Shown here: piece by piece, positions 49,470-64,000 of the stretch
Position numbering within the stretch: the stretch's first letter is position 1
Layout of the letters: the number at the start of each line of letters is the position of its first letter
Assembly (NCBI GenBank): GCA_024742415.1
Contig: JANSYN010000001.1
Coordinates: 496,001 to 560,000 of the forward strand
Direction of reading: 5' to 3'
Length of the DNA stretch: 64,000 nt
From: Gammaproteobacteria bacterium
GTDB lineage: Bacteria > Pseudomonadota > Gammaproteobacteria > Pseudomonadales > Halieaceae
The notes under the pieces: generated by a model
What the model was told of the DNA's origin: nothing
The model's database searches: none
Seen by the model: the letters and a program-made list of their open reading frames with translations, nothing else
Position numbers and translations under genes: made by a program

Positions 49470-49550
49470 TCGCACGCCGTCTGACTTCATAGTGACGGGC
49501 GCTTCGAATTGTTTAGCTTTTACCCAAAAACCGGCATGAGAACTACTAAA

Positions 49551-50243
49551 ATGAAACTGTGGGAAATGTCTGTCAAAATCAATACGCTACTGGCCACCGC
49601 GGCTGCGATCGTAAGCCTGCATAGCGGTGATGTTATTGCCGCCTCTATCACCGATACGGTTGTAGTGGACGACACGGAGTGGGCCCAGATAAGCCTTTTT
49701 ACCAATCTCTCATGGAACGATGTTAATGCGGTATGTCCTTCAGGCGTCTGCGCTGGCGGAACACTTAATGGCTACGCCATGAGCGGATGGACATGGGCAA
49801 ATGTGTCTCAGGCAAATGCCTTACTGAATGATTTTATTGGTAGCGATTTGCTGGGCCCAGGACCAGATTCGATCGCACAGGTTGATAGTGTATGGGGCCC
49901 TGCAGCCTTTGACGCCGGCTTTAACCCTACCGAGGCTTTGCCAGTGGGCGAGGGCACTTACAGAGGTATTTATGCCTGGACCAGCGACATAGCGACAACG
50001 GGGTGCAGCGACTGCGGACAAAATGTTTTTATACAAGATCTTCCGGCTGGAAACCCGACCGTTGACAGAATGGGCTCTACGGGGAGTGTATCGTTCGGGA
50101 ATTCACTGTCGACATTGGGAGCGCTCTTCTTTCGATCCAACGTGTCAACGGTACCGAGCCCTGGTACCTTCGCGTTGGTGCTGCTAGGAATTGCTGGTCT
50201 AGCGTTTAGGTGTAGACCGACGAAAAGTCCCAGTCATCGATAG
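49551..50243 (+). CDS. Secreted protein with PEP-CTERM-like C-terminal anchor
   Basis: The product is about 230 residues; ATGs at 49536, 49551 and 49566 are all possible and none has a clear ribosome site. It has a signal peptide (NTLLATAAAIVSLHSGDVIAA) and a beta-rich middle with Cys pairs (CPSGVCAGG, CSDCGQ). The tripartite C-terminus consists of VPSPGT, a hydrophobic helix (FALVLLGIAGLAF) and a basic tail. This is the layout of exosortase-sorted PEP-CTERM proteins, although the usual VPEPAT reads VPSPGT. The middle domain is unrecognised. It follows the propeller gene by about 80 bp and may be expressed with it. Confidence 0.7.
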   Translation: MKLWEMSVKINTLLATAAAIVSLHSGDVIAASITDTVVVDDTEWAQISLFTNLSWNDVNAVCPSGVCAGGTLNGYAMSGWTWANVSQANALLNDFIGSDLLGPGPDSIAQVDSVWGPAAFDAGFNPTEALPVGEGTYRGIYAWTSDIATTGCSDCGQNVFIQDLPAGNPTVDRMGSTGSVSFGNSLSTLGALFFRSNVSTVPSPGTFALVLLGIAGLAFRCRPTKSPSHR

Positions 50244-50577: not shown

Positions 50578-50955
50578 CTAGTTCTGTGAGCGTGCGGGCA
50601 GTATTGCACCAAGGGCCAGCACAACCGTGCAAACCAGTTCAACGATAATGATCCGGATGCTGGCGGAATCGAATCCTTCTGTGATTCCCGTCATGATGCG
50701 GACAAGCATCATGGCGCCTTCAATGGCGGCTAAAGGAACAAGCCAGGCCCATTGGCCTCGCAGCGCTGCGTAAATGGCGATGGCCGCCATCGCCAGGTAG
50801 GGGGCACCGATCAACGCGCGGACGGTCATTAACCCGGCCGACCCGTCAGGTGTTAGTCCAAGTCCTTCAGCGAGTTGCTCGGGACGGAGGACCCCCAGCA
50901 AACCAGGCACCAGAAACGCGATGCCGAGAAAAATTATGGCAATACGAATAAACAA
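50578..50955 (-). CDS. DUF4345-type membrane protein
   Basis: The product is 125 residues from a TTG at 50955, chosen because AAGGAG lies exactly 6 bp upstream; the frame extends to 50982 across that site. It has four membrane segments, and the block GLTPDGSAGLMTVRALIGAPYLAMA matches the DUF4345 family. It is the last gene of the seven-gene minus-strand cluster, 28 bp after the MAPEG gene. Function is unknown. Confidence 0.75.
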   Translation of the reverse strand: MFIRIAIIFLGIAFLVPGLLGVLRPEQLAEGLGLTPDGSAGLMTVRALIGAPYLAMAAIAIYAALRGQWAWLVPLAAIEGAMMLVRIMTGITEGFDSASIRIIIVELVCTVVLALGAILPARSQN

Positions 50956-50983
50956 TGCGATCTCCTTTTTTAGTAAATGCAAT

Positions 50984-51421
50984 TTAAAGTGCTTTCAGCG
51001 TCAGGATGAGCAATATCCCGATCGCCAATGAGAGGATGAGCGTCAGGCCCGCGCCGAACATGCGCGCTAGCAAGAATAAACGGCGGTTGCCTGACAAATC
51101 TTGCAGATGCGACCCGGCAGATGAGGAGAAACCGATCAGGTGGAGCACGCGTGCAATTGCAAACAGGAGCGCCATCCAGAAAACGGTAGTCGTTTGACCC
51201 ATCATTAGTTCATAGAGTGCGAGTACGACAATGTAGATCGGTGCGTATTCGGTCATATTTGCATGGCGGCGTATACGACGCGCCAGCACTTCGTCATCCG
51301 CATCGCCGATAGGCTTTCGGTTTCTTCCGCGATACCCGCCGACCGAAGCTGCCAAAGCCGTTTGCACGATGATTAGAAAAGCGCCCATGTAACCTGTATA
51401 GATCGGCATACTGATATCCAC
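50984..51421 (-). CDS. MAPEG family membrane protein
   Basis: The 145-residue protein has a GTG start and a strong GGAGG site 6 bp upstream. It has four membrane helices and the family hallmark RRIRRHANMTEYAPIYIVVL near residue 50. MAPEG proteins include membrane glutathione transferases and related isomerases. Two soluble glutathione transferases are encoded in the same cluster, supporting a glutathione-linked role. Catalysis is not shown. Confidence 0.85.
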   Translation of the reverse strand: MDISMPIYTGYMGAFLIIVQTALAASVGGYRGRNRKPIGDADDEVLARRIRRHANMTEYAPIYIVVLALYELMMGQTTTVFWMALLFAIARVLHLIGFSSSAGSHLQDLSGNRRLFLLARMFGAGLTLILSLAIGILLILTLKAL

Positions 51422-51512
51422 TAGTGACCTCCGGTAAGTAGCGCTCTCGGCCTCAGAGTACGAAGAGCGGTGAAGTTGATATAGACACTGTCACAGACAG
51501 TGTCGTTGCGTG

Positions 51513-52049
51513 CTAGATTTGATTCTTTACCTCGCGGTCTTCAAGGACGCACTGGTTGCCATTTGAGTCCTTCAAGGTGCTGCGATTGATTGTTTCGCTC
51601 ACTGACAACGTGCGCTGTACGGGGGTGTTCGCACTGGAAGTCACCGTCCAACTCAAAGTCAGGAAGGAGGATGTGCTCTGCATCTTCCCCACGTGCACCT
51701 GAGGCTCACCGGCACATCCTTCTTCGATTATCTCAATGGTCACAGGCTCGGAATCATCGACCCCGTTCGAATCAAAGACGAATGTGCGACGGTTCACGAA
51801 GGGCTTCCCCTTGCAGTTTTCAATCGCATCCTCGCCCGATTCAGAAAGCGCTTTATGTACTTCGCAACGGCGCTTCGCCATTGGCGTTGCGTTGCAATCA
51901 CCTGTGTCCATGGCTCGACGTTCAGCGAGTTTCGCTTCGGCGTTGGCGATAAATTCATCCACCCGATCATCCGTACAGACAAGTGATTTCTGGCCGGCCT
52001 GTGCGGTCATCGTAATCGGCAGTACTGCGAGTAGGGCAAGGCGTTTCAT
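51513..52049 (-). CDS. Secreted protein of unknown function
   Basis: The 178-residue protein has a short signal peptide (KRLALLAVLPITMTAQAG). The mature part has six Cys (LVCTDD, TGDCNA, RRCEVH, ENCKGK, EGCAGE, QCVLED), suggesting disulfides, and a beta-rich second half. I recognise no family. It lies 48 bp after a glutathione transferase gene on the same strand. Confidence 0.65.
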   Translation of the reverse strand: MKRLALLAVLPITMTAQAGQKSLVCTDDRVDEFIANAEAKLAERRAMDTGDCNATPMAKRRCEVHKALSESGEDAIENCKGKPFVNRRTFVFDSNGVDDSEPVTIEIIEEGCAGEPQVHVGKMQSTSSFLTLSWTVTSSANTPVQRTLSVSETINRSTLKDSNGNQCVLEDREVKNQI

Positions 52050-52097
52050 AAATCGTATTCTCTGTTAGGTGTTTGGTGATTTGATTTCGGGGTGACA

Positions 52098-53147
52098 TTA
52101 CTCATCGAACAGTCGCTCACACCCTGTGCCTGACAGCAGATTGTCTACTTTGTTCTTTGCTTCAACGGGTAGAGCGCGATAGGCTTCACGTAACCAGCGC
52201 AGGCACTTCGCCGGGTAAACGAAGGGTTCCTGTACCCAGGGCTTGCCGTCAACTTCGCATTCCACTTTGTCAGCGCCCTGTGCCACTGCCGCCGCATTGC
52301 CGAGCATGAAGGGCGCATAGGCCCGGCCCAGCTCGCGCAGTAGATCTTTCAGCGTGTCGGGGGGGTTAGCGATATCCAGCCAGTCCGTATCTGAAACCTC
52401 CAGCCCGCTCACATCTTCAAGGCGTTCGGTCCAGGCGTAGGCGCGTGGCGATTCTTTCAGGGCAACACGACCGGGCGTCGGGTCCGTAATCACCAGCTGA
52501 GTCATCTGCCCGTAGCAGGCGAAATCCCCGGCGCCCGGGCGTGCTCCCAGCACGTAGGGTGTGTTCTGGATATGTCGGTCGAACAACTGCAGCCAGCGGT
52601 GCCAGCTGGCCTCAATGATGGGTGCGGTCGTTGCATTGGAGCCCACGACTCCAATGCGTGAGATTTGCCGTTGGGCAAACAGCGCTTCGAACTGCTGCCC
52701 CTCCTGTGGGGTCAACTGTATATTGACGCCGTAAGGGATATAAGAGCTGGCCTTCCTCGTATCAGGGGCATTGGCCCACCGGTAGTGGAACATACATTTA
52801 CTGAGCCATTCGTCTCCATAGTCCTCGAAGAGCAGGTCAAACAGTCGCAAAGCGGGGTCTGCCGGCCGCAGGCGGCGGGGCCTCACTCGTTCTTCAAGGT
52901 GATCGATAATGGGTGTAGTGTCAGACAGTACCGTTGACGGCTCGCCATCCTGTCCAGGCAATACAAGGTAGGGCAGGAGCGGTAGGGGGCGATCAGGCAG
53001 CAGTGACGCTTCCTTACTCCCCGATACGACAAAATGGTACGGTATACGTCGAAATCGTAGCGCTGATCTCAGTTTCCGGGTATAGGGGGAGCCTCCCACG
53101 CCGACCAGCCACGCAGGGTGTTCCAGAACCGGTTGGTTATTCATCAT
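52098..53147 (-). CDS. Glutathione S-transferase family protein (long, about 350 residues)
   Basis: The ATG at 53147 follows AAGGGG; the frame opens further up to 53234. The thioredoxin-fold N-terminus begins near residue 8 with WLVGVGGSPYTRKLRSALRFRRIPY. The VLSDTTPIIDHLEER segment carries the glutathione-binding Asp-Thr in place of the usual Glu-Ser. An extended helical C-terminal part follows. It is about 130 residues longer than a standard GST, and the last 90 residues (VECEVDGKPWVQEPFVYPAKCLRW) form a separate module. The substrate is unknown. Confidence 0.8.
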   Translation of the reverse strand: MMNNQPVLEHPAWLVGVGGSPYTRKLRSALRFRRIPYHFVVSGSKEASLLPDRPLPLLPYLVLPGQDGEPSTVLSDTTPIIDHLEERVRPRRLRPADPALRLFDLLFEDYGDEWLSKCMFHYRWANAPDTRKASSYIPYGVNIQLTPQEGQQFEALFAQRQISRIGVVGSNATTAPIIEASWHRWLQLFDRHIQNTPYVLGARPGAGDFACYGQMTQLVITDPTPGRVALKESPRAYAWTERLEDVSGLEVSDTDWLDIANPPDTLKDLLRELGRAYAPFMLGNAAAVAQGADKVECEVDGKPWVQEPFVYPAKCLRWLREAYRALPVEAKNKVDNLLSGTGCERLFDE

Positions 53148-53273
53148 GCAAACCCCTTGTCGTTCATCAGGCGATACTTCAGCGCTGTCGCAAGTATGAT
53201 GAAGCGACCAGACACAGCAGCGCTGTCCAGGCAAGTAGCAGTATCAGGCGCGGGCCATCCAGCAGTGGCCGTT

Positions 53274-54362
53274 CTAGTCGCTTGCAGATACCCAGTTATC
53301 ACTGCGATCTAACATATCCGTGACCCACTGCCGCACACTTGTGCCGCCGATGCCAAAGTCAAACTGCTTGATAATGTATGTGTGCTCGTCTGTGAAGGAG
53401 ATCAGACTGCGGAAACGGTCCGGGTGAGATTGCTCGAGTTCCGCGACGGTCTCAATGAGCTCTGCGCCAAAGACCGCGGGATCGATGCCCGACCCTGTAA
53501 CGACTTCATCCGCAGTGGAACTGATGAAGCCCATGCGAAGGTTTTTGTCTTCGTCGAGCTGGTACTGGTGGTACCCGGTGAGATTGCCATCTTCACGCGT
53601 ACAGGCATCGCAGCTTGCAGGGATAAAGGCGGCGGAATTCCAATAGTCGATCAGGCTTTCCTGTGTACCGGGGTTCCAAATGCCGACGCCGGAATCATTG
53701 ACCAGCTCAATCGGGACTTCCGGATACAGCTTCCGGACCAGCGGCAGGGCATAGTGCACGCCAAAGCCACCGGCGCTGTTGCCGGCAAGCAGTATGCGCG
53801 AAGGCGCGGGGTAGGTGCTGACAATAATGTCCAGCGAGGCCGAAAGATTCTGGATGCCACGAAAGAAACGGTCGTTGTTGCCATCGCCGTCGCTGTCAAC
53901 ATCCCGGTCGCCGGTGAAGAGCGTGCCATCACAATAGGGCACATAGCCCAGGTCGAAATCCGTGGCCGGATTGGTCGGGTTCCCGGCCTCGAGGATGCCA
54001 ACGTTGAAGAGCGGAAGTCCGACATCCACAGCCGAACAGCTCGTTGGTCCGCAGGCGCCGCCGCCCTGCAAGAAGATCAGCAGTTCCTCGCTCGCGCCAT
54101 CGCGTGTGGACATGTTGAATGCGTTGCCGGTGTAGCACAGTGGTCCGTCGCCGCCGCCGAAGGTGTGCCGGGTAACGCCTGCGTCGAGGCGCTGTGATGT
54201 CATGGGTGTAAAGACGCCAAGAAAGCGGTCGATGCCCTGGTCATACAACTCCTGAAACGGAACGGAGGTACTGCCATTGCCGTCGTCGCTGCCGTCAGAG
54301 CAACCAATGATAAACATTGAGCAGAGGACGCACACTGTAATCAACTGTTGTCGTGCAGACAT
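53274..54362 (-). CDS. Lipoprotein hydrolase of the pectin acetylesterase family
   Basis: The 362-residue protein runs from the ATG at 54362. The lipobox FIIGC near residue 20 is followed by a Ser/Asp/Gly-rich linker. The hydrolase domain has the oxyanion segment FLQGGGACGPTSC, the nucleophile elbow GNSAGGFG with Ser near residue 195, the ELVNDSGVG block, and a likely catalytic His in FTDEHTYI. It also has a DSDGDGNND stretch that may bind calcium. It should sit in the envelope as an ester hydrolase. No pectin genes are nearby, so the true ester substrate is open. Confidence 0.8.
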   Translation of the reverse strand: MSARQQLITVCVLCSMFIIGCSDGSDDGNGSTSVPFQELYDQGIDRFLGVFTPMTSQRLDAGVTRHTFGGGDGPLCYTGNAFNMSTRDGASEELLIFLQGGGACGPTSCSAVDVGLPLFNVGILEAGNPTNPATDFDLGYVPYCDGTLFTGDRDVDSDGDGNNDRFFRGIQNLSASLDIIVSTYPAPSRILLAGNSAGGFGVHYALPLVRKLYPEVPIELVNDSGVGIWNPGTQESLIDYWNSAAFIPASCDACTREDGNLTGYHQYQLDEDKNLRMGFISSTADEVVTGSGIDPAVFGAELIETVAELEQSHPDRFRSLISFTDEHTYIIKQFDFGIGGTSVRQWVTDMLDRSDNWVSASD

Positions 54363-54413
54363 CGGGCTCTCTTGGTCAATGGGCAATGCAGGGTAGGTGC
54401 CTTTGTGCTCAGC

Positions 54414-55070
54414 TTAGCCGCCGGGAAGCTCTTCCGCCACAATAGGCGCGTAGCACTCAAGCGCAAAAATCCGCTCTATGTAGGCCGCCATCTCAGGGTG
54501 CCGCTGGGCATCAATTTTTTCGCCGGCAATGGCCAGATTGACGAAAGGCGAGGCAAGCGCGATATCGGCGATCGAAAATGCGCCGCCTACCATGAACTCG
54601 TCGTCCGCCAGGCATTGTGTCAGGTAGTCGAGGATTTTTGGCATCAACTCGTTCAGTGTTTTGTGAACCACGTCCTCGTTGGTTTCCTGCTTGAACACCA
54701 GCGGCATGACAACACGCTGAAAAAAGACGCCGCCGACCAGCGTCGGCATCATGTAACCGTCGGCGTATTCCTCGAACCATAGGGCACGGGCGCGCGGCCC
54801 CGGTTCTGCCGGCAGCAGCGGAGGCTCCGGGTAGCGATGCTCGAGGTAGCTAAGGATGACGGAAGAATCCGGCAGGATGAGGTCGTCTTCTTCCCAGCAA
54901 GGTACTTTAGACAACGGACTTTTCTCTACGTACTCCGCAGGGGCGCCGAAGGGAACTTGCTGTGTGTTGTCGTACTCGATGCCCTTGAATGCCAGAGCGA
55001 CACGTACCTTGCGCACGTAAGGTGAACTGTTTGCGCCATGCAGTATCGGCCGGGAAAGCTCTGAGTTCAT
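54414..55070 (-). CDS. Glutathione S-transferase family protein
   Basis: The 218-residue protein has a thioredoxin-fold N-terminal domain (ILHGANSSPYVRKVRVALAFKG), a conserved cis-Pro (SKVPCWEEDD) and the glutathione-binding Asp-Ser (LPDSSVILSYLEHRYP). The C-terminal helical domain has the N-capping motif FSIADIALASP. AGGAAAA precedes the ATG. It starts 9 bp after the reductase gene and so is co-transcribed. Confidence 0.87.
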   Translation of the reverse strand: MNSELSRPILHGANSSPYVRKVRVALAFKGIEYDNTQQVPFGAPAEYVEKSPLSKVPCWEEDDLILPDSSVILSYLEHRYPEPPLLPAEPGPRARALWFEEYADGYMMPTLVGGVFFQRVVMPLVFKQETNEDVVHKTLNELMPKILDYLTQCLADDEFMVGGAFSIADIALASPFVNLAIAGEKIDAQRHPEMAAYIERIFALECYAPIVAEELPGG

Positions 55071-55079
55071 AAACTTTTC

Positions 55080-56087
55080 CTATTGTACCTTGAGGACCAG
55101 CTTGCCCTTGTTGCGGCCGTCGAACAGCATGCGCAGCGCTTCCGGGAAATTATCGATGCCTTCAACAATATGCTCGTCCAGGTGCAGTTTGCCTTCCTGC
55201 ATCCAGCCCATCATCTCCATAATCGCTTCGGGAAAGCGAGCGGCGTAGTCAAAGACAACAAAACCCTCCATGCGTGCGCGCTGTACCAGTAGGTTCATGT
55301 AGTTGCTTGGTCCAACCATGCGCTGGTCGCCTTCGTTATTGTATTGACTGATCGCGCCACAAAGAAGAATCCGGCCGCGCATTGCTATTCTGTTCAGAGC
55401 GTGCTCCAGCGTCTGGCCGCCAACGTTGTCGAAGTAAATGTCGATCCGATCAGGGCATACAGCCTTAAGTGCTTTGGCTAAATCCTCGTTTTTGTAGTCG
55501 ATGCAGGCGTCAAATCCGTATTTCTCGACCACCATTTCGCACTTCTCCTTTCCCCCTGCGATACCGACCACGCGGCAGCCTTTGATCTTTGCTATTTGAC
55601 CAACGACGCTGCCCACCGCGCCGGCTGCTCCAGAGACCAGAACCGTTTCGCCCTCTTTCGGCTGGCCCACATCAAGCAGTCCAAAGTAGGCCGTCATTCC
55701 CGGCATGCCCAGGCCGCCCAGGAATTTTGGTGGCGGTGCCAGTTCCGGCATGATCCTGGTGAAGCCCTGTGCCGTTCCTACGTAGTGCGTCTGTACACCG
55801 GTGGTGCCCAGCACGGTATCGCCTACTGCGAATTTCTTCGATTTGCTGTCAGTGACCAAGCCGACGCCGCCGGCGCGCATAACTTCTCCAATACCCACGG
55901 GAGGTACATACGAGCGTACATCGTTTAACCAACCGCGCATCGCTGGATCAATGGAAACATATTGCACCTCGATCGCAATTTCGCCATCTTGAAGTGCTCG
56001 CGGTGCGTCTTGGGATTGTTCCCAAACGTCATCCCGGGGCAGCCCCACTGGTCTTTTTTTTAATCGGATCTGCTTTGCTGAAGACAT
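55080..56087 (-). CDS. NADP-dependent MDR oxidoreductase (CurA / prostaglandin-reductase-like)
   Basis: The 335-residue medium-chain reductase of the zinc-free type has MRGWLNDVRSYVPPVGIGEVMRAGG, LGMPGMTAYFGLLDVG, the nucleotide motif VSGAAGAVGSVVGQIAKIKG and YFDNVGGQTLEHAL. Relatives reduce the C=C bond of enones and enals (curcumin, leukotriene and prostaglandin metabolites). It is the first gene of the seven-gene minus-strand cluster, with AAGGA before the ATG. A perfect 23-bp palindrome lies 43-65 bp upstream. Pairing with glutathione transferases suggests electrophile metabolism. Confidence 0.9.
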   Translation of the reverse strand: MSSAKQIRLKKRPVGLPRDDVWEQSQDAPRALQDGEIAIEVQYVSIDPAMRGWLNDVRSYVPPVGIGEVMRAGGVGLVTDSKSKKFAVGDTVLGTTGVQTHYVGTAQGFTRIMPELAPPPKFLGGLGMPGMTAYFGLLDVGQPKEGETVLVSGAAGAVGSVVGQIAKIKGCRVVGIAGGKEKCEMVVEKYGFDACIDYKNEDLAKALKAVCPDRIDIYFDNVGGQTLEHALNRIAMRGRILLCGAISQYNNEGDQRMVGPSNYMNLLVQRARMEGFVVFDYAARFPEAIMEMMGWMQEGKLHLDEHIVEGIDNFPEALRMLFDGRNKGKLVLKVQ

Positions 56088-56129
56088 GCGTGGCGTCCTT
56101 GTTGAAGAGGTTTGGTACTAATGCTATTC

Positions 56130-56152
56130 TTATATTGACGGCGTCAATATAA
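56130..56152. promoter_or_regulatory. Perfect 23-bp palindrome, probable operator
   Basis: ttatattgacg and cgtcaatataa are exact inverted copies around a single central base. A minus-strand TTGACG (-35-like) lies inside it. Size and symmetry fit a TetR/AcrR-type repressor site controlling the minus-strand cluster beginning at 56087. No such regulator is encoded in the window. Confidence 0.75.
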
Positions 56153-56511: not shown

Positions 56512-57675
56512 ATGAGGTTAGAACTCACACAGAGTTGCAGAAAGATCATGTCGATGGGCCTTTTGTCGCTGTCCGTGTTGAATTCGGGATGCAGCGATAG
56601 TGCGGATGCGGATGATATTGCCCGTGGAGGGATGTGCACACCCGGCGATGTGCTTTTGAGTCCCACGCCGGAAGCGCCTGCGGCTGCGTGTAGTGTGCCG
56701 CCGAGCCCTTTCTCGTCGCTGATAGAAGCAGGAGGCACGGCGCGGGCAGCCACCACAGAACAGCGTCGCGCTGAATTGCTGGACCCTTCGAGGATTACTG
56801 TCGTGACCTGTGGTACGGGTAGTCCCTTTCCCTCTGAGCGGGCCCAGTCCTGCCTTGCGGTTTTTGTCAACGGCAAGTTCCTGCTGTTCGATGCCGGTGA
56901 TCGCGCCCAGAATTCGATAGAGAATCTCAATCTTCCGGTGACCGACATCGAGAGCATATTCCTGACGCATTTTCATTCCGATCATATTGCCGATCTCGGA
57001 GAGGTGATAAGCCGTAGCTGGATATTGGGCCGCACCCGGCCGATCGAGATTTATGGCGGGCCGGAAGTTGAGCAGGTGGTCAATGGCTTTAATCTGGTTT
57101 ATTCCGCGGACGAGGCCTATCGGATAGCGCACCATGGTGAAGGAGTCTTCCCGGAGCCGCTTGCGGCTGCAGCGGTGCCGATCGAACGGCCTGGCCCGGA
57201 GGGTAAGGTCGTCTATGAGTCTGATGGTGTGCGTGTGCTGGCATATTCTGTGGACCATTCGCCGATAGGAACGGCACTGGGCTATCGCGTAGAATATGCC
57301 GGTAAAGCGGTGGCCGTTAGTGGTGATACGGTTGATACACCCGGTCTGCGTGCCTTGGCGGCCAACGCCGATGTTTTTGTTTCAGAGGTCATGAACAAGA
57401 GCGCAGTAGAAGATATGGAGTGCGCGTTTGGTCGAATCACTGATGTTCGTCTTGAGAAAATTTTTGCAGACATACGCAGTTACCATATTGATCTGCCTGA
57501 GCTTGCCCGGTTGGCGAATGATGCCGACGTCACTACGCTGGTTATCACCCACCTCGTACCCACGCCACTCAATGCGGCCCAGGGGGATGTGTTTTTCACC
57601 CAGCCTGCGTCGACTATTTTCGGCGGTACGTTAGTTTTGGCGGAAGACGGGACTGAAGTGGTGATCCTGCTTTAG
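56512..57675 (+). CDS. MBL-fold metallo-hydrolase lipoprotein (RNase Z-like type)
   Basis: The 387-residue protein has a lipobox-like LNSGC near residue 27 and an acidic linker. An MBL domain spans from about residue 95: GTGSPFPSERAQ, the metal motif LTHFHSDHIADLGE, SVDHSPIGTALGYR, SGDT and the final His ligand in VITHLVPTP. All expected metal ligands are present. It resembles RNase Z/ElaC-fold hydrolases, but export as a lipoprotein argues against tRNA processing; a small-molecule or lactone substrate is more likely. Two degraded relatives lie downstream. Confidence 0.8.
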   Translation: MRLELTQSCRKIMSMGLLSLSVLNSGCSDSADADDIARGGMCTPGDVLLSPTPEAPAAACSVPPSPFSSLIEAGGTARAATTEQRRAELLDPSRITVVTCGTGSPFPSERAQSCLAVFVNGKFLLFDAGDRAQNSIENLNLPVTDIESIFLTHFHSDHIADLGEVISRSWILGRTRPIEIYGGPEVEQVVNGFNLVYSADEAYRIAHHGEGVFPEPLAAAAVPIERPGPEGKVVYESDGVRVLAYSVDHSPIGTALGYRVEYAGKAVAVSGDTVDTPGLRALAANADVFVSEVMNKSAVEDMECAFGRITDVRLEKIFADIRSYHIDLPELARLANDADVTTLVITHLVPTPLNAAQGDVFFTQPASTIFGGTLVLAEDGTEVVILL

Positions 57676-57890: not shown

Positions 57891-58739
57891 TCAACATCCG
57901 CTACCCAGGAAACTGGATTGGTAGTTCACCCAGTTTGCTACCTGGCAGTCCTCACACAGTACGTATTCGCAGGTATTGGGGTCGCCACGTAAGTTACATC
58001 GCATAAACGAGGTCGCCAGCTCAATACCTGGCGTATAGTTACTGAGTGTGAGATGCGTGACCCCCGGCCCGCCAGTGACAAATACACTGAGTTCGGTTGA
58101 CGATGTGTAACCAGCTTCGGTCATATCAGCGAGAAAATCCGCGTCGCCGGTTATCCACAGTCCAGGTTTGGAGACACCCGTCACAGAGCCTGAAAACATG
58201 ACTGCAGCGGTGCCGTATGTATTGGCCTGGACCGAGTGAGTGCTATTACCGATGTCTCTGGATGCAGCGATTGAACCGAGCGACTTGCCCATCAAGCCAA
58301 AGTTCGACTCTAACTTCTGGTAGAAGATACTTGATACATCATTGTTAAGCTCAAGAGCACGCTGTACTGAATCAAGTATCGGGGTGCCGCTTGTTGCTGC
58401 AGGAGAGTGGGAGACTGCGACAACAAAACCGTAGCTTGCTAAACGCTCAAAGTAGGGAACATAGCCAGAGCCACCACTGGTTCCCGCGCCATTCCCCCAG
58501 CCGATGACGGGAAACGTACACCCACTGTAAGGAAGATTGGCAGGATAATACAGCGTCGTGCCTGAGTCGCCACTGACTAGTTCCACAGACTCAGTTGGCA
58601 GGATGCCATTCCCTACGGACGAGCCATCATCAATTATGCTGCAGGTTGACTCATGCCACGTGCTCTCGGCTATAGAATAGCCAGCATGCGCCGATAAATA
58701 CAAGATTACCAAGTAGATACATTTTTTTGATATCAACAT
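57891..58739 (-). CDS. Secreted alpha/beta hydrolase (cutinase/chlorophyllase-like fold)
   Basis: The product is 282 residues from the ATG at 58739; TTGAGGAAA just before it is the ribosome site, so the TTG at 58754 is not the start. It has a signal peptide (about 1-25). Oxyanion region FPVIGWGNGAG, nucleophile elbow GLMGKSLGSIAAS (Ser near residue 155), Asp candidate GDADF, catalytic His GVTHLTLS. Cys near both ends of the mature protein suggest disulfides. The Lys before the nucleophile is unusual. The fold resembles extracellular polyester or lipid ester hydrolases; the substrate is unknown. Confidence 0.75.
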   Translation of the reverse strand: MLISKKCIYLVILYLSAHAGYSIAESTWHESTCSIIDDGSSVGNGILPTESVELVSGDSGTTLYYPANLPYSGCTFPVIGWGNGAGTSGGSGYVPYFERLASYGFVVAVSHSPAATSGTPILDSVQRALELNNDVSSIFYQKLESNFGLMGKSLGSIAASRDIGNSTHSVQANTYGTAAVMFSGSVTGVSKPGLWITGDADFLADMTEAGYTSSTELSVFVTGGPGVTHLTLSNYTPGIELATSFMRCNLRGDPNTCEYVLCEDCQVANWVNYQSSFLGSGC

Positions 58740-58750
58740 GACGTTTTTCC

Positions 58751-58906
58751 TCAAGTGACAGTGCGGTAGTGCAATACCTTGCCGACGCCGGCATCGCGCG
58801 CGGACTCTGCCGCCTCTACTGGGCGCACGTGATGGTCCAGCGCTTCAACGGTGATTCTCGGCAGGATATGTTTGTCCGACTGTTGGCTGTTCCGTGCATC
58901 ATCACG
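58751..58906 (-). pseudogene. Fragment of an MBL-fold hydrolase gene
   Basis: The minus-strand frame encodes HILPRITVEALDHHVRPV then EAAESARDAGVGKVLHY and stops early. It aligns with the C-terminal part of the MBL-fold proteins at 56512 (KIFADIRSYHIDLPELARLA) and 60259 (EAAETARDAGVCHLLYYH). No THFHSDH motif or start is present. It sits between a membrane protein stop and the hydrolase ribosome site, so it is a leftover of a lost gene. The left limit is approximate. Confidence 0.65.
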
Positions 58907-58960: not shown

Positions 58961-59368
58961 TTACTCACTGCCCGTTGGCATCTGTTTCCATAGATATCGC
59001 AATGCGATAAACGCCGGAATGTAGTACAGAAAGACAAAGATCGCGGTGACGCGTACCATGTTAATGGTTTCGCTGAACGCAAAGAACGTCGGCAGATCAA
59101 TGGCATCGGTGACGAGCCGCACGAAGATCAGTATGAAAAGCATTGGCGCGCTTCTAAGCGCGAAGGCGACAATGAGGGCCATGCCAACCGCCAGATTTCG
59201 GGCCGTGTAGATTAATGCTGCAAGGTAGTTTACTTCCTGCGCGCCTGCGCCTCCTGTGAACTCAGGATTCGTCAGCGCCACATACGGGCCAAGGAACATC
59301 GGTAGTGTTTCAATGATGATGATGATTGTCAGCCACCAGGGGAGATCGATTCGCGCTGTGGTAGTCAT
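58961..59368 (-). CDS. Small four-helix membrane protein
   Basis: The product is 135 residues from the ATG at 59368. Four hydrophobic segments lie near 10-30, 45-70, 75-95 and 105-128, with TIIIIIETLPMFLGPYVALTNPEF at the first. It starts 35 bp after the SDR gene on the same strand. The layout resembles DUF4345-like small membrane proteins, but I cannot name the family. Confidence 0.6.
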   Translation of the reverse strand: MTTTARIDLPWWLTIIIIIETLPMFLGPYVALTNPEFTGGAGAQEVNYLAALIYTARNLAVGMALIVAFALRSAPMLFILIFVRLVTDAIDLPTFFAFSETINMVRVTAIFVFLYYIPAFIALRYLWKQMPTGSE

Positions 59369-59402
59369 TGTTATTTCTTTCAAGTTGGATGTGCTGCGAT
59401 TT

Positions 59403-60197
59403 TCAGAATAGCGAGGCGTGCTGACCACCGTCGATTACGATGTTCTGCCCCACGATGAAGCGAGACAGGGGGCTGCACAGCAGCGCCGCCATGGGGGCCA
59501 GGTCATCGGGTTCCGCCATAAACCCAGCGGGGATTTTATTGTTCTCCAGGAAGTGGGGTAGAACGCTCTCTGCGGTGGGTTCAAGGCCAAAGGCCTCGGC
59601 GTAGATCGGCATGATCTCGGCGGCGCCCTCCGTCGCAAACATGCCGGGCAACAGGTTGTTGATATTGACGCCGGAGGCCGCGATATCCCGGGAGACACTC
59701 GCGGTGTAGTTGATGAGCGCGGAGCGGGCGGGCCCCGACATCAGGCGCCAGATCATGGGGTTCTTGGCGGAGAAAGTCGCAATGTTCACAATGCGCCCCC
59801 AGCCCTTGTTTTTCATCACAGGTATGAAATTGCGCATAATTTCGATGGGGCCGATGAGTGCGGTTTCTATAGACTCGCGCCACATATCGGGAGTGATATT
59901 CAAATAGTCACCATTGGGGGCGGGGGGCGTGATAGTAATACAGAGAATGTCCGGGTCGGGGCATGCATCGAACAGTGTTTGTCGACCTTCTTCCTTTGAG
60001 GAGTCCGCGACGACAGGTGTGACACTGACACCGTATTTCTCTGAGATGTCCTTCGCGGCATTGACCAGGCGTTCTTCGCGACGCGCTGAAATGTAGAGTT
60101 CCACGCCTGCCTCAGCGAGACGCTCTGCCGTTGCTCGCCCCATACCGGCGCTACCGCCGGCCATGAGTGCTTTTTTTCCGTGAATCTGGAGGTCCAT
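59403..60197 (-). CDS. Short-chain dehydrogenase/reductase family protein, atypical active site
   Basis: The 264-residue Rossmann protein has the NAD(P) motif AGGSAGMGRATAERLA, a substituted nucleotide segment CITITPPAP, and the C-terminal block FIVGQNIVIDGGQHAS. Where classical members have Ser...Tyr-x3-Lys it reads TFSAKNP...SGPARSALINYTAS, so the Tyr-Lys pair is not in place. Similar SDRs with an ARSAL-type segment exist. AGAGGA precedes the ATG. It may be an oxidoreductase with a different mechanism or another reaction altogether. Confidence 0.85.
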   Translation of the reverse strand: MDLQIHGKKALMAGGSAGMGRATAERLAEAGVELYISARREERLVNAAKDISEKYGVSVTPVVADSSKEEGRQTLFDACPDPDILCITITPPAPNGDYLNITPDMWRESIETALIGPIEIMRNFIPVMKNKGWGRIVNIATFSAKNPMIWRLMSGPARSALINYTASVSRDIAASGVNINNLLPGMFATEGAAEIMPIYAEAFGLEPTAESVLPHFLENNKIPAGFMAEPDDLAPMAALLCSPLSRFIVGQNIVIDGGQHASLF

Positions 60198-60258: not shown

Positions 60259-60807
60259 TTACAAGCCCTTGCGCGTGAAGATGATCTCATCGCTGTTGGC
60301 AGGCAGTGAAAAGCTGACCCCGTCCTGCCCAACGGTGTATCTGGAGAAAATCTTATCGGCGCCGTTTAGCCACAACGCTTTTTGGCCGGGGATGACCAGC
60401 GGAGGAACGATGTGGTAGTACAGCAAGTGGCAGACGCCCGCGTCTCGAGCGGTTTCCGCTGCCTCATGATCTGAGTGGAAGTGGGTGAGGAACACGCCTT
60501 GAATATGTCCGGCCCGGTAGCCTATACGGGCAAGGTTGCTCACGCCGTCTGTGCCTGTATCCACGATGAACAATTGCTTGCCAGCCACCACTGCCACGCA
60601 CAGTCCTGAGGCATTGGGAACGGGTATGGGTCCGCCGGTGCCGCAAAGGACAAGGTGTAGACCGTCCTCCAACTCTACGACTGCGTCGCTTCCCAGTCGG
60701 GATTCCAGGCCGCGTTCCATCAGCCGCGCGATAAGCGTTACGCGTTGTCTATAGATGACGACGCCAGCCAGTGCCAGGATGCCGTGAACTGCAAGCAGTT
60801 TTTTCAT
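60259..60807 (-). pseudogene. MBL-fold hydrolase with in-frame internal deletion
   Basis: The 182-residue open frame starts with an N-terminal membrane anchor (LLAVHGILALAGVVIY) and the MBL start LVLCGTGGPIPVPNAS. At residues 107-114 the metal motif LTHFHSDH runs directly into EAAETARDAGVCHLLYYHIVPP, the far C-terminal part of the family. Compared with the 387-residue relative at 56512, roughly 150 residues are missing, including the central Asp ligand of the SGDT motif. The frame is intact, so a short protein could be made, but a normal metal site is unlikely. The junction is near 60465. Confidence 0.75.
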
Positions 60808-60833: not shown

Positions 60834-62255
60834 TTATTCTGCCAATTGCCGCAGATTTTCTTCGTGTGTCGCTCTATCGATCCGGTATCGAAACACCAGT
60901 GCAATCGCCGTCATATACAGACAAAGTAACGTGGGGGCGAAAACCAATGCCCAGCGCGTCAGGGTGGCCTCATCGAGTGAGCCCGGGGTTGCCGTTTCTG
61001 AAATGCCCACTATGACCAACACCGTGCTGGCCATAAATATCCCGAGTCCAGAGACGGATTTTTCCAGGAACTTGCGCGAGGCAAAGAAGATGCCCTCGGA
61101 ACGTCGACCAGTAGTCTTCTCGCTATCTTCAACAATATCGGCAAACATAGATGAGATGGTGATGTTGGCAGAGATAAAAAGTGCCATGTCGATTACGAAG
61201 ATGCCCAGCACTGTCGGCAGGAGTTCAGGAGAGCCGTTATCGGGAAACAGGCCAATCACGCGCAGTAGATAGGGTAGCGGCGCCAGCGATGCCGCAGTAA
61301 ACCAGAAAAAGATTGCTGCCTTCTTCTTGCCAATACGGCGTGACAGCCTGGGTGCGATGATCACCGCAATGAAGACGCTCACAAGCAGGAACACATTCAA
61401 GAGGCCGATCTGCTCAGAGGTAAACTCCCAGAACAAAGTGAACAGAAAGTTGGCGGAGGAAAGGTTCAGCCCACTGGCGGTAGCGCCGAAAACTGTCGCG
61501 CCCATCAATGCCAGGAAAGAGCGGTTGGACAGCGTTTGTTTTAACTCGGCCGCCGTCTGCCGGGCACTGAATGGTCGCTTTGGCGGCGGTGACTTCAAAG
61601 TAGGGATGCGATTGTGCGTGCCAATGGATGAGGCCAGTATTGCGACAAACATGGTCACCGCGGCAAGGATACTAAAATTCGTATAGCCTGCAGGATTCAT
61701 AAGCCCCACAGGATACTCTTCCGTCTGCGGAAAGAAGAACGTATACGCGATAACCGCTAGCCCAATGCCGCCCAGGTAACCAAAGAAGCCGCGATATCCA
61801 ACGAGTTTGGTGCGTTCGTCGTAGTCCGAGGTGAGTTCGGCAATTAGCGACGAGCTGGGCACCTCAAACAAGGTAATCAGGGTACGAACCAGGGCCGCGA
61901 TGACCAGTAGATAGAAAAACATTGCTTCGGTGGACAGGTCGGGCGGGTTCCACATCAGGTAGAAGCTCACCGCAACAGGGAGCGCCGAAAAATACATAAA
62001 TGGGTGTCGGCGGCCCCAGCGCGAGTGCAGGTTATCCGAAATGTGGCCAACCAACGGGTCAGAGATCGCGTCTATGATCAGCACCAGCATGATGGCGAAC
62101 CCAACCTGTTCTGCGGGCATGCCAACGACGCGACTGTAGAAGAACAGGAGGAACGTCGAGAAGGCAGTGTCCTTGATGCCATAGGCAACAGCGCCAAAGC
62201 CGTATGCGACCTTAGTGCCCAGTGGTAATGGTGAGGCGCTCTCGGTATTTGACAT
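60834..62255 (-). CDS. GPH-family (MelB-like) sugar/solute:cation symporter
   Basis: The 473-residue protein has twelve predicted membrane helices. The early motif LIIDAISDPLVGHISDNLHSRWGRRHPF is the GPH/MFS_2 signature, with the Asp residues that bind cation and substrate. A cytoplasmic loop near 215-235 is polar. AGGAAA precedes the ATG. It lies between a TonB receptor and the SDR on the same strand, fitting uptake of an externally supplied substrate across both membranes. Confidence 0.85.
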   Translation of the reverse strand: MSNTESASPLPLGTKVAYGFGAVAYGIKDTAFSTFLLFFYSRVVGMPAEQVGFAIMLVLIIDAISDPLVGHISDNLHSRWGRRHPFMYFSALPVAVSFYLMWNPPDLSTEAMFFYLLVIAALVRTLITLFEVPSSSLIAELTSDYDERTKLVGYRGFFGYLGGIGLAVIAYTFFFPQTEEYPVGLMNPAGYTNFSILAAVTMFVAILASSIGTHNRIPTLKSPPPKRPFSARQTAAELKQTLSNRSFLALMGATVFGATASGLNLSSANFLFTLFWEFTSEQIGLLNVFLLVSVFIAVIIAPRLSRRIGKKKAAIFFWFTAASLAPLPYLLRVIGLFPDNGSPELLPTVLGIFVIDMALFISANITISSMFADIVEDSEKTTGRRSEGIFFASRKFLEKSVSGLGIFMASTVLVIVGISETATPGSLDEATLTRWALVFAPTLLCLYMTAIALVFRYRIDRATHEENLRQLAE

Positions 62256-62389: not shown

Positions 62390-64000
62390 TTAAAAGTCGT
62401 AGCGTGCGGTTGCCCCCCAGGTTCTCGGCGGCGCGAGCCAGAAGGCGTCGGTCGACGTGACAGGGAACGTCGTTGCGGTAAAGGACACGTACTCGTCATC
62501 GGTCAGGTTCTTGCCCCAGACAGAGATGTTCCAATTCTCGTTGCGCCAACCCAGCTTGGCATTCAGATCTTCCCGGTCATCAAACTGGTCGTCGCGCAGG
62601 TTGCCTGAGGCGCTGTTTGCGTGATCGTCCATATAGCTGTAGTCCGTGCGCATGTAGATGGCGCCGTCAGCCAGCGGCAAGAAAAAAGTTGCATTTAGCG
62701 AGTAGCTGTATTCGGCCGTGTAGGGAAGGTCGTCACCCTCATTCGGCCCGCTGGTAATTTCATACTTGTCCATGTATAGCAGGCTGGCACCCAGTGTCAG
62801 GTTCTGCAGGGGCAGCGCCTGAATCTCCAGGTCGAGTCCCTGGGTCTCCACTTCCGCCTCGTTGGATACTCGGGTGCCGATGCCCGTCTCCAACTGCTGC
62901 TGGAACTGGTATTCACTGATCTCGGTATAGAATATAGCTGCGTTTATGCGCAGGCGAGACTCCAGCAGGGTGGACTTGATACCAGCTTCGTAGCTGATGG
63001 TTTCCTCGTCCTCGAACTCTCGTTCTTCGGCGGTGCCGTTAACCGTGTTAAAGCCACCGGACTTGGAACCTGTCGCCACGGTCGCGTAAAGCATGGTGTC
63101 ATCCAGGGCGTCGTAGCTGGTGGTGATGAGCCAGTTGATGTCGTCCGTGCTGCGAGTGAAGGATTCGTCAATCGGTGTGGAAATGCTCGAGAGGAAGGAC
63201 TGGCCCGTTAATGCTTGAGACGGTGCAGTGGAATTGATCTCCGTGAAGAGGTCCGCATTCTTTTCCTCGTCAGTCCAGCGCAGGCCACCGGTGACCTGCC
63301 AGGCGTTGGTGATAGACCAGGTACTCTGGCCGAAGATCGCCACATTGGTGGTGTCGATACTGGATTCCGCGCGCAGGTTGTCACCAGGTTGGGCAAGAAA
63401 GCTCAAAGGCGCCGGGAGTGTAGCGAGAAAGTCTTCCTGTTGGTTACCCTGAATAAGGAAGTCTTCTCCCAGAAACACAAAGGGTATGCCATTGCCGCCC
63501 TGGGTAGTGGACTCGTAGTAGAAAAATCCAAGCATATGCTGGAACTTATCATTTGCGTCGAACGCGACGCGAAATTCCTGAGAGAAGGTATCACCTTCGC
63601 CATAGGCATCTACGTAAGACATAACGTCGAGTTGAGAGCGGTCGGGGTCGAAGCTGACGCCGCTCTTGTTATCTGAATAGGCGGTAATTGACTTGAACGA
63701 ACCCCACTCACGCTCGTAATCCGCGACGAGTTCAAAGCTGTAAAATTCGCTTTCAAATCCCTGTTCGATGCTGACTGCGGTCTCGTAATCAAACGGGTCG
63801 TTCTTGTCGGGCTGTAACCCTTCAGCTACCAGTTGTTCGTTCACGGACTCGCCTGCGATAGCGTCGGGTGCGCAACAGCTCGGGTTGCGATCCACATAGG
63901 TGCCCTTGAAGCTGATGCTCAGGTCTTCGATGGGTACATAAATTAGTTTTCCGACGACGTTCCAGTCATCTGTGCCGTTCATGTCATCCCCGGTCCCGTT
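62390..64000 (-). CDS. TonB-dependent outer-membrane receptor (N-terminal part outside window)
   Basis: The frame is open through the right edge (in-frame residues TGDD precede the Met at 63982), so the plug domain and signal peptide are missing. The visible 536 residues are beta-barrel strands with alternating polar/aromatic residues (FGQSTWSITNAWQVTGGLRWTDEEKN, GSKSGGFNTVNG) and end GATARYDF with the terminal aromatic typical of BamA substrates. A Cys pair (SCCAPD) lies in an early strand or loop. It resembles the large receptor families of Halieaceae-type bacteria that import complex organic compounds. The ligand is unknown. Confidence 0.9.
   Translation of the reverse strand, partial: NGTGDDMNGTDDWNVVGKLIYVPIEDLSISFKGTYVDRNPSCCAPDAIAGESVNEQLVAEGLQPDKNDPFDYETAVSIEQGFESEFYSFELVADYEREWGSFKSITAYSDNKSGVSFDPDRSQLDVMSYVDAYGEGDTFSQEFRVAFDANDKFQHMLGFFYYESTTQGGNGIPFVFLGEDFLIQGNQQEDFLATLPAPLSFLAQPGDNLRAESSIDTTNVAIFGQSTWSITNAWQVTGGLRWTDEEKNADLFTEINSTAPSQALTGQSFLSSISTPIDESFTRSTDDINWLITTSYDALDDTMLYATVATGSKSGGFNTVNGTAEEREFEDEETISYEAGIKSTLLESRLRINAAIFYTEISEYQFQQQLETGIGTRVSNEAEVETQGLDLEIQALPLQNLTLGASLLYMDKYEITSGPNEGDDLPYTAEYSYSLNATFFLPLADGAIYMRTDYSYMDDHANSASGNLRDDQFDDREDLNAKLGWRNENWNISVWGKNLTDDEYVSFTATTFPVTSTDAFWLAPPRTWGATARYDF

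Follow-up and report, generated by a model that had tools for sequence, protein, structure and literature searches.

Introduction

Among the closest described counterparts of the system considered here is glutathione-dependent epoxide catabolism, represented by IsoGHIJ for isoprene and by StyI/StyJ of Gordonia rubripertincta CWB2 for styrene (PMC8552685), in which catabolism is centred on a glutathione S-transferase (GST). Three further comparisons frame it: the CurA/prostaglandin reductase branch of the medium-chain dehydrogenase/reductase (MDR) family, the KstR-like TetR regulators, and 9,10-seco steroid degradation. Here we analyse a 64,000-nucleotide stretch of a Halieaceae genome (the window; assembly GCA_024742415.1, contig JANSYN010000001.1, below C12, C12:496001-560000), in which seven minus-strand genes at 50578-56087 lie behind a 21-bp palindrome. 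We consider it probable that these genes form one operon of a local catabolic regulon of about 40 kb, in which a TetR protein encoded at C12:565405-566034 would most likely exert control through the motif TATTGAC-N3-GTCAATA.

The locus resembles IsoI/StyI-type systems in that short-chain dehydrogenase/reductase (SDR), CoA-activating and beta-oxidation-type genes stand near a GST gene, and StyI is the top fold match of a model of the long GST in the run. The likeness of the long GST itself is one of fold only, the IsoI sequence model NF049950 giving 28.6 bits against a cut-off of 300, and the systems differ in that no alkene monooxygenase was identified at this locus and that the long GST here carries about 100 extra C-terminal residues. 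The MDR protein of the window shares its domains with the CurA/prostaglandin reductase family but scores 377.8 bits against the CurA model NF058644, under the cut-off of 440, and would head an operon in a catabolic regulon. As with KstR-like regulators, a TetR protein goes together with one palindrome spread over a catabolic block, but here HMG-CoA reductase belongs to the regulon.

For 9,10-seco steroid degradation the likeness lies in a KshA-type Rieske protein (C12:595214-596419; PF19298, 221.5 bits, cut-off 23.3) and an HsaA-like protein (393.3 bits against NF045629), whose genes lie near the contig end (C12:593850-596419, L216). The difference is that the HsaA-like protein falls under its cut-off of 450 and that both genes lie past the last operator, by 8-11 kb. 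To our knowledge, glutathione enzymes are not part of 9,10-seco steroid degradation. A cholesterol-degrading Halieaceae isolate has been reported (PMC5790920), and in the passages covered the main text of that report does not use the word glutathione. Our literature search returned no match to the operator core TTGACNNNGTCAA and, among the results listed, no description of this regulon.

Results

Nine operator sites in one stretch

The earlier note had described seven minus-strand genes separated by 9 to 126 bp behind an operator-like palindrome, and the open reading frames (ORFs), the gaps (10, 91, 48, 126, 51 and 9 bp) and the palindrome at 56131-56151 were all reproduced. The palindrome, TATATTGACGCCGTCAATATA, is 21 bp long, perfect save for its central base, and ends 43 bp upstream of the MDR start codon. 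A scan of the window allowing up to three mismatches returned this place only, against a mean of 0 in 100 shuffles. Across the genome of 4.14 Mb (labelled G000), the pattern TATTGACNNNGTCAATA (TATTGAC-N3-GTCAATA) occurs with at most one mismatch at nine sites, all of them within the 33 kb of C12:552133-585399 and only the first inside the window; the reversed control pattern has no match in the same genome. Five sites are exact (C12:552133, 561482, 563393, 576826 and 577727) and four carry one mismatch (C12:567928, 570693, 577688 and 585383). A weight matrix built from the nine scores them at 24.1-41.3 bits, the next-best place among the 60,658 bases scanned reaching 13.1, and the window site, scored against a model built without it, ranks fifth. 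The proposed operator stands, and its sharing among genes is well supported; the further idea that it is private to the seven genes is rejected because the genome holds nine sites, which belong to a far larger unit.

Other candidate places were set aside. Three further exact occurrences of TTGACGNCGTCAA in the genome (L001, L003, L004) fall within ORFs or at their starts and have no flanking arms. A weak operator-like place before the MAPEG gene (window 51480-51505; 12.9 bits, with an inverted repeat in the gap) is not above background and is not claimed, because another place scores 13.1.

The site at 552133 leads into the seven-gene run, and that at 561482 into a wholly minus-strand series encoding an enoyl-CoA hydratase (ECH), a TonB-dependent receptor, a major facilitator superfamily (MFS) protein, a shortened metallo-beta-lactamase (MBL)-fold protein, an SDR, a membrane protein and a hydrolase. 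Site 563393 lies between the genes for DsbD and a long-chain acyl-CoA synthetase (NF006134, above cut-off), and site 567928 between those for a 329-aa GST and a sulfatase, the latter followed by the TetR gene. Further along, site 570693 precedes a gene whose small product matches AhpC-TSA weakly (20.2 bits, cut-off 26), site 576826 leads into HMG-CoA reductase, sites 577688 and 577727 lie between the genes for an SDR and a nitronate monooxygenase (NMO)-type protein, and site 585383 lies between a 203-aa GST gene and two acyl-CoA dehydrogenase (ACAD) genes. At sites between divergent genes, the gene served may be either one. The GST-, MAPEG- and DsbA-type proteins of the block are the long and short GSTs, the MAPEG protein, the 329- and 203-aa GSTs and a double-DsbA protein, whose gene has no operator site of its own. 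The wider reading in the earlier note, of glutathione-linked catabolism that involves an esterase-type protein and a C=C reductase, is supported by the TonB receptor, MFS, CoA ligase, ACAD, ECH and further GST genes that stand by the same operator next to the run. The HMG-CoA reductase gene (C12:575589-576773; L215:5589-6773) is found beside the TetR gene in relatives.

A TetR-family candidate regulator

The TetR protein is encoded 5.4 kb past the window and carries the TetR_N DNA-binding domain (PF00440, 36 bits, cut-off 24) as well as PF13305 (46.4 bits, cut-off 26.8). Thirty TetR loci were drawn from the best matches in 37 genomes (threshold 1e-40); in the 250 bp before the gene, 22 of them carry the core TTGACNNNGTCAA exactly and 29 carry it with at most one mismatch, against means of 0 and 0.2 in shuffled upstream stretches. 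The sole locus lacking the core is that of the genome studied here. This footprint links this TetR family to the motif.

The exact motif is present in 10 of 293 genomes, G000 included, and the reversed control in five of 293, so that a few chance matches are expected. Six of the others belong to the same family, and their seven exact sites all stand beside an ortholog of this TetR (57-65%), of the HMG-CoA reductase (72-85%) or, in G004, of the TonB receptor and the acyl-CoA synthetase (78%). Exact matches in three genomes of other families (G042, G206, G237) lie inside ORFs and were taken as chance. Seven of the eight genomes with a TetR match of at least 58% hold the exact motif, as do three of the 285 others. 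The TetR protein thus most likely controls the operators, by what would be binding and repression. A promoter-like TTCACT-18 bp-TATAAG recognised by eye overlaps the palindrome, an arrangement that would suit a repressor; a sigma-70 promoter scan gave no match under its rule.

The seven-gene run and its neighbours

The features of the window are collected in the table below.

Table. Features at and around the seven-gene run (window coordinates; sizes and scores where available)
Feature	Position	Strand	Evidence
Operator palindrome, one of nine in genome	56131..56151	.	36.9 bits; 34.1 bits left out of own model
MDR ene-reductase (CurA/PTGR-like), 335 aa	55080..56087	-	PF16884 116.6 bits, PF00107 79.7 bits
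Short GST, 218 aa	54414..55070	-	PF13417 64.6 bits
Pectinacetylesterase/NOTUM-family (PAE) lipoprotein, 362 aa	53274..54362	-	PF03283 43.6 bits (cut-off 26.6)
Long GST, 349 aa	52098..53147	-	PF13417 49.6 bits (cut-off 22)
Cys-rich, probably exported orphan, 178 aa	51513..52049	-	Six Cys; signal-peptide-like start by eye
MAPEG protein, 145 aa	50984..51421	-	PF01124 54.5 bits (cut-off 23.4)
Small DUF4345-like membrane protein, 131 aa	50578..50973	-	PF14248 24 bits, below cut-off 26.5
MBL-fold lipoprotein, divergent from seven-gene run	56512..57675	+	PF12706 55 bits
PET-hydrolase-like secreted protein, end of neighbouring run	57891..58754	-	PF12740 23.6 bits, below cut-off 28
Small membrane protein, neighbouring run	58961..59371	-	ORF; no Pfam match
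SDR, neighbouring run	59403..60197	-	PF13561 112.7 bits
Shortened MBL-fold protein, neighbouring run	60259..60807	-	PF00753 35.3 bits, residues 68-114 only
MFS transporter, neighbouring run	60834..62255	-	PF13347 328.5 bits
TonB-dependent receptor	62390..64000, on to C12:560648 (648 bases past window)	-	PF00593 104.1 bits, PF07715 63.5 bits

Within the run, the MDR protein matches 4b7c at 432 bits, and the PAE lipoprotein shows by eye a GNSAGG motif and a lipobox-like IIGC. The Cys-rich protein has no match in Pfam, NCBIfam or PHROG, and its single-sequence model is too poor for a fold search (pLDDT 45.5). The DUF4345 assignment of the last gene is only suggestive. A plus-strand ORF (49509-50243) faces the end of the run. 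The scan for terminator-like sites returned 8 against 6.5 in shuffles, which is the background level, and its four minus-strand entries all fall within genes (short GST, PAE and DUF4345) and not between them. A single transcript may cover all seven genes.

The 56131 site could conceivably act on the divergent MBL-fold lipoprotein gene as well. The MBL-fold protein of the neighbouring run (182 aa) looks internally deleted; it matches the first and last parts alone of a 356-aa ortholog in G004 (L228:2969-4039).

Conservation among relatives

Relatives were searched in 116 genomes for most queries and in 57 for the MDR protein, all counts including G000 itself. The full seven-gene set was found in none of the 115 other relatives, a result that concerns the complete set. 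Taken singly, relatives of the MDR protein occur in 44 of the 57 at 1e-40 (58% or less outside G000), of the PAE lipoprotein in 36 of 116 at 1e-10, of the long GST in 51 of 116 at 1e-40, of the short GST in 49 of 116 at 1e-25 and of the MAPEG protein in 7 of 116 at 1e-10 (35% or less elsewhere); the Cys-rich and DUF4345-like proteins each match in G000 alone (1 of 116). Long and short GST genes stand no more than 15 kb apart in seven of the 116 genomes (G000, as C11 paralogs, G002, G007, G027, G028, G047 and G089), and in three the distance between MDR and PAE relatives is 10-12 kb (G000 on C16, G014 and G015). G047 also has an MDR relative next to a distant relative of the long GST (28%). The earlier note had proposed, as a check, to look for these families together in other Halieaceae. 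A conserved pathway complete in these seven genes does not hold up: in the relatives searched the families are found singly or in loose pairs, close to the scattering that the note itself had named as evidence against it.

A core of the regulon is shared with G004, comprising TetR (79%), HMG-CoA reductase (87%), the NMO-type protein (87%), the double-DsbA protein (77%), acyl-CoA synthetase (78%), TonB receptor (78-80%) and MFS protein (82%), with one exact site and two sites carrying one mismatch. The seven-gene operon is probably a late addition to this older regulon.

Several paralogs were noted in G000. Three more PAE-family genes lie at C8:1786-2871 (72%), C16:208376-209446 (49%) and C25:389513-390583 (49%). 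A second locus, C11:126148-132271 (L190), carries long and short GST genes, a gene recognised by eye as encoding an alpha/beta hydrolase, and one for a TonB receptor that is 51% identical to part of the window's receptor; the palindrome is absent there at one mismatch. A plasmid origin was considered and rejected: the long GST and double-DsbA proteins have no plasmid match at 1e-30, the MDR protein matches 12 plasmid records at 1e-80 with at most 57.5%, and the NMO-type protein matches 96 plasmid records, at no more than about 60% among the matches listed. Two plasmid regions that were inspected hold acyl-CoA-type clusters, for which no pathway is named.

The long GST in other phyla

A scan of one genome per species returned 67 loci with long-GST relatives, at up to 80% identity (in a Deltaproteobacteria metagenome-assembled genome). 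At 1e-10, MDR and PAE matches accompany one locus each and short-GST matches four, and the sulfatase, ACAD, NMO-type and other region proteins are commoner there. In all, 39 proteins of the region gave 109 query-locus pairs and 39 control ORFs (window 1-45000) gave 22; the count is rough, related queries counting one gene twice (91 pairs when each place goes to its best query), the control being a mechanical ORF list and many of the 67 loci being short. Two loci, L056 and L069, hold the long GST, sulfatase, small membrane protein, NMO-type protein and both ACADs all together.

The AlphaFold model of the long GST (pLDDT 93.7) matches StyI best (Z 17.7, rmsd 3.0, 224 residues), tied with 4kf9 (Z 17.6) and 1z9h (Z 17.2), in a comparison that barely covers residues past about 250. 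By sequence, the long GST has no match among solved chains at 0.001.

Discussion

A predicted route and its possible substrate

The gene content suggests a route in which every enzymatic step is predicted from the families present. Exported hydrolases (the PAE-family lipoprotein and the sulfatase) would strip ester or sulfate groups off a lipophilic compound, and the TonB receptor and MFS protein would import the remainder; ester cleavage outside followed by uptake is a plausible order of events. Inside the cell, the SDR, CoA ligase, ACAD and ECH would degrade the imported compound through CoA activation and oxidation, the MDR protein would act as reductase on a conjugated C=C bond, and attachment or removal of glutathione at an electrophilic intermediate would fall to the GSTs and the MAPEG protein, as it does to GSTs in pathways of the IsoI/StyI type.

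The substrate class is perhaps steroid- or isoprenoid-like. The leads are the sulfatases, HMG-CoA reductase, a Baeyer-Villiger-type protein of G004 (801 bits, below the cut-off of 1100) and the KshA- and HsaA-type genes, which hint at steroid degradation. HMG-CoA synthase was found at 1e-10 in only six of 293 genomes, all of other families, and not in G000; HMG-CoA reductase is therefore unlikely to serve the usual mevalonate pathway here. A role of the NMO-type protein as a steroid-ring enzyme was dropped, its best solved relatives being 6e2a and PA1024 (2gjl). More ambitiously, and with real doubt, we suggest that an undescribed TetR/HMG-CoA-reductase regulon of these gammaproteobacteria may degrade a conjugated steroid- or isoprenoid-like compound with obligatory glutathione attachment and removal, using a GST subfamily of about 350 aa whose members stand next to sulfatases, paired ACADs and an NMO-type flavoprotein across several phyla.

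Weighing the explanations

A number of observations weigh against reading the seven genes as one operon of a TetR-controlled catabolic regulon. The gene for TetR itself has no site at its start and follows a sulfatase gene that has one; G092 has a TetR ortholog, but its one site carries two mismatches; and the Fisher test for the motif-TetR link (p 2.8e-11) ignores kinship. SelA and SelB genes (C12:571663-575030, L215) lie inside the operator interval, which is therefore not all one pathway, and the KshA- and HsaA-type genes lie beyond it. The gaps of 91 and 126 bp are roomy enough for further promoters. In the stretches read, the regulon core of G004 lacks the seven genes, which are therefore not essential to the regulon.

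This last point would also suit a detoxification operon, in which the MDR protein, GSTs and MAPEG protein clear reactive enones or lipid-peroxidation products and TetR control serves only for protection while the pathway runs. MAPEG proteins, MDR proteins of the CurA/PTGR type and GSTs are common detoxification families, but the exported PAE-family lipoprotein is a poor fit to such a role, and in other phyla the relatives of the long GST are often found close to sulfatase, ACAD and NMO genes; we regard detoxification as unlikely. An assembly by chance, in which unrelated genes gathered behind a pre-existing operator and form no functional unit, would account for the want of the set in the 115 other relatives, for the two genes that have no relative in any of those genomes, and for the disparity between a long GST that reaches 80% in a Deltaproteobacteria genome and an MDR protein that stays at or below 58% outside G000. 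Set against this are the three glutathione-type proteins among the seven, the other two GST genes that stand next to it by this operator and the pairing of long and short GSTs within 15 kb in seven genomes, which make chance assembly improbable.

In summary, what began as an odd seven-gene run becomes a defined regulon for which there is a candidate regulator and whose operator is sharp. This regulon is the new result, and it makes the inducer and substrate testable. A widespread GST subfamily of about 350 aa, for which solved structures offer no match by sequence, gains a catabolic context, and an HMG-CoA reductase gene is placed by the same operator in genomes where HMG-CoA synthase was not found at 1e-10.

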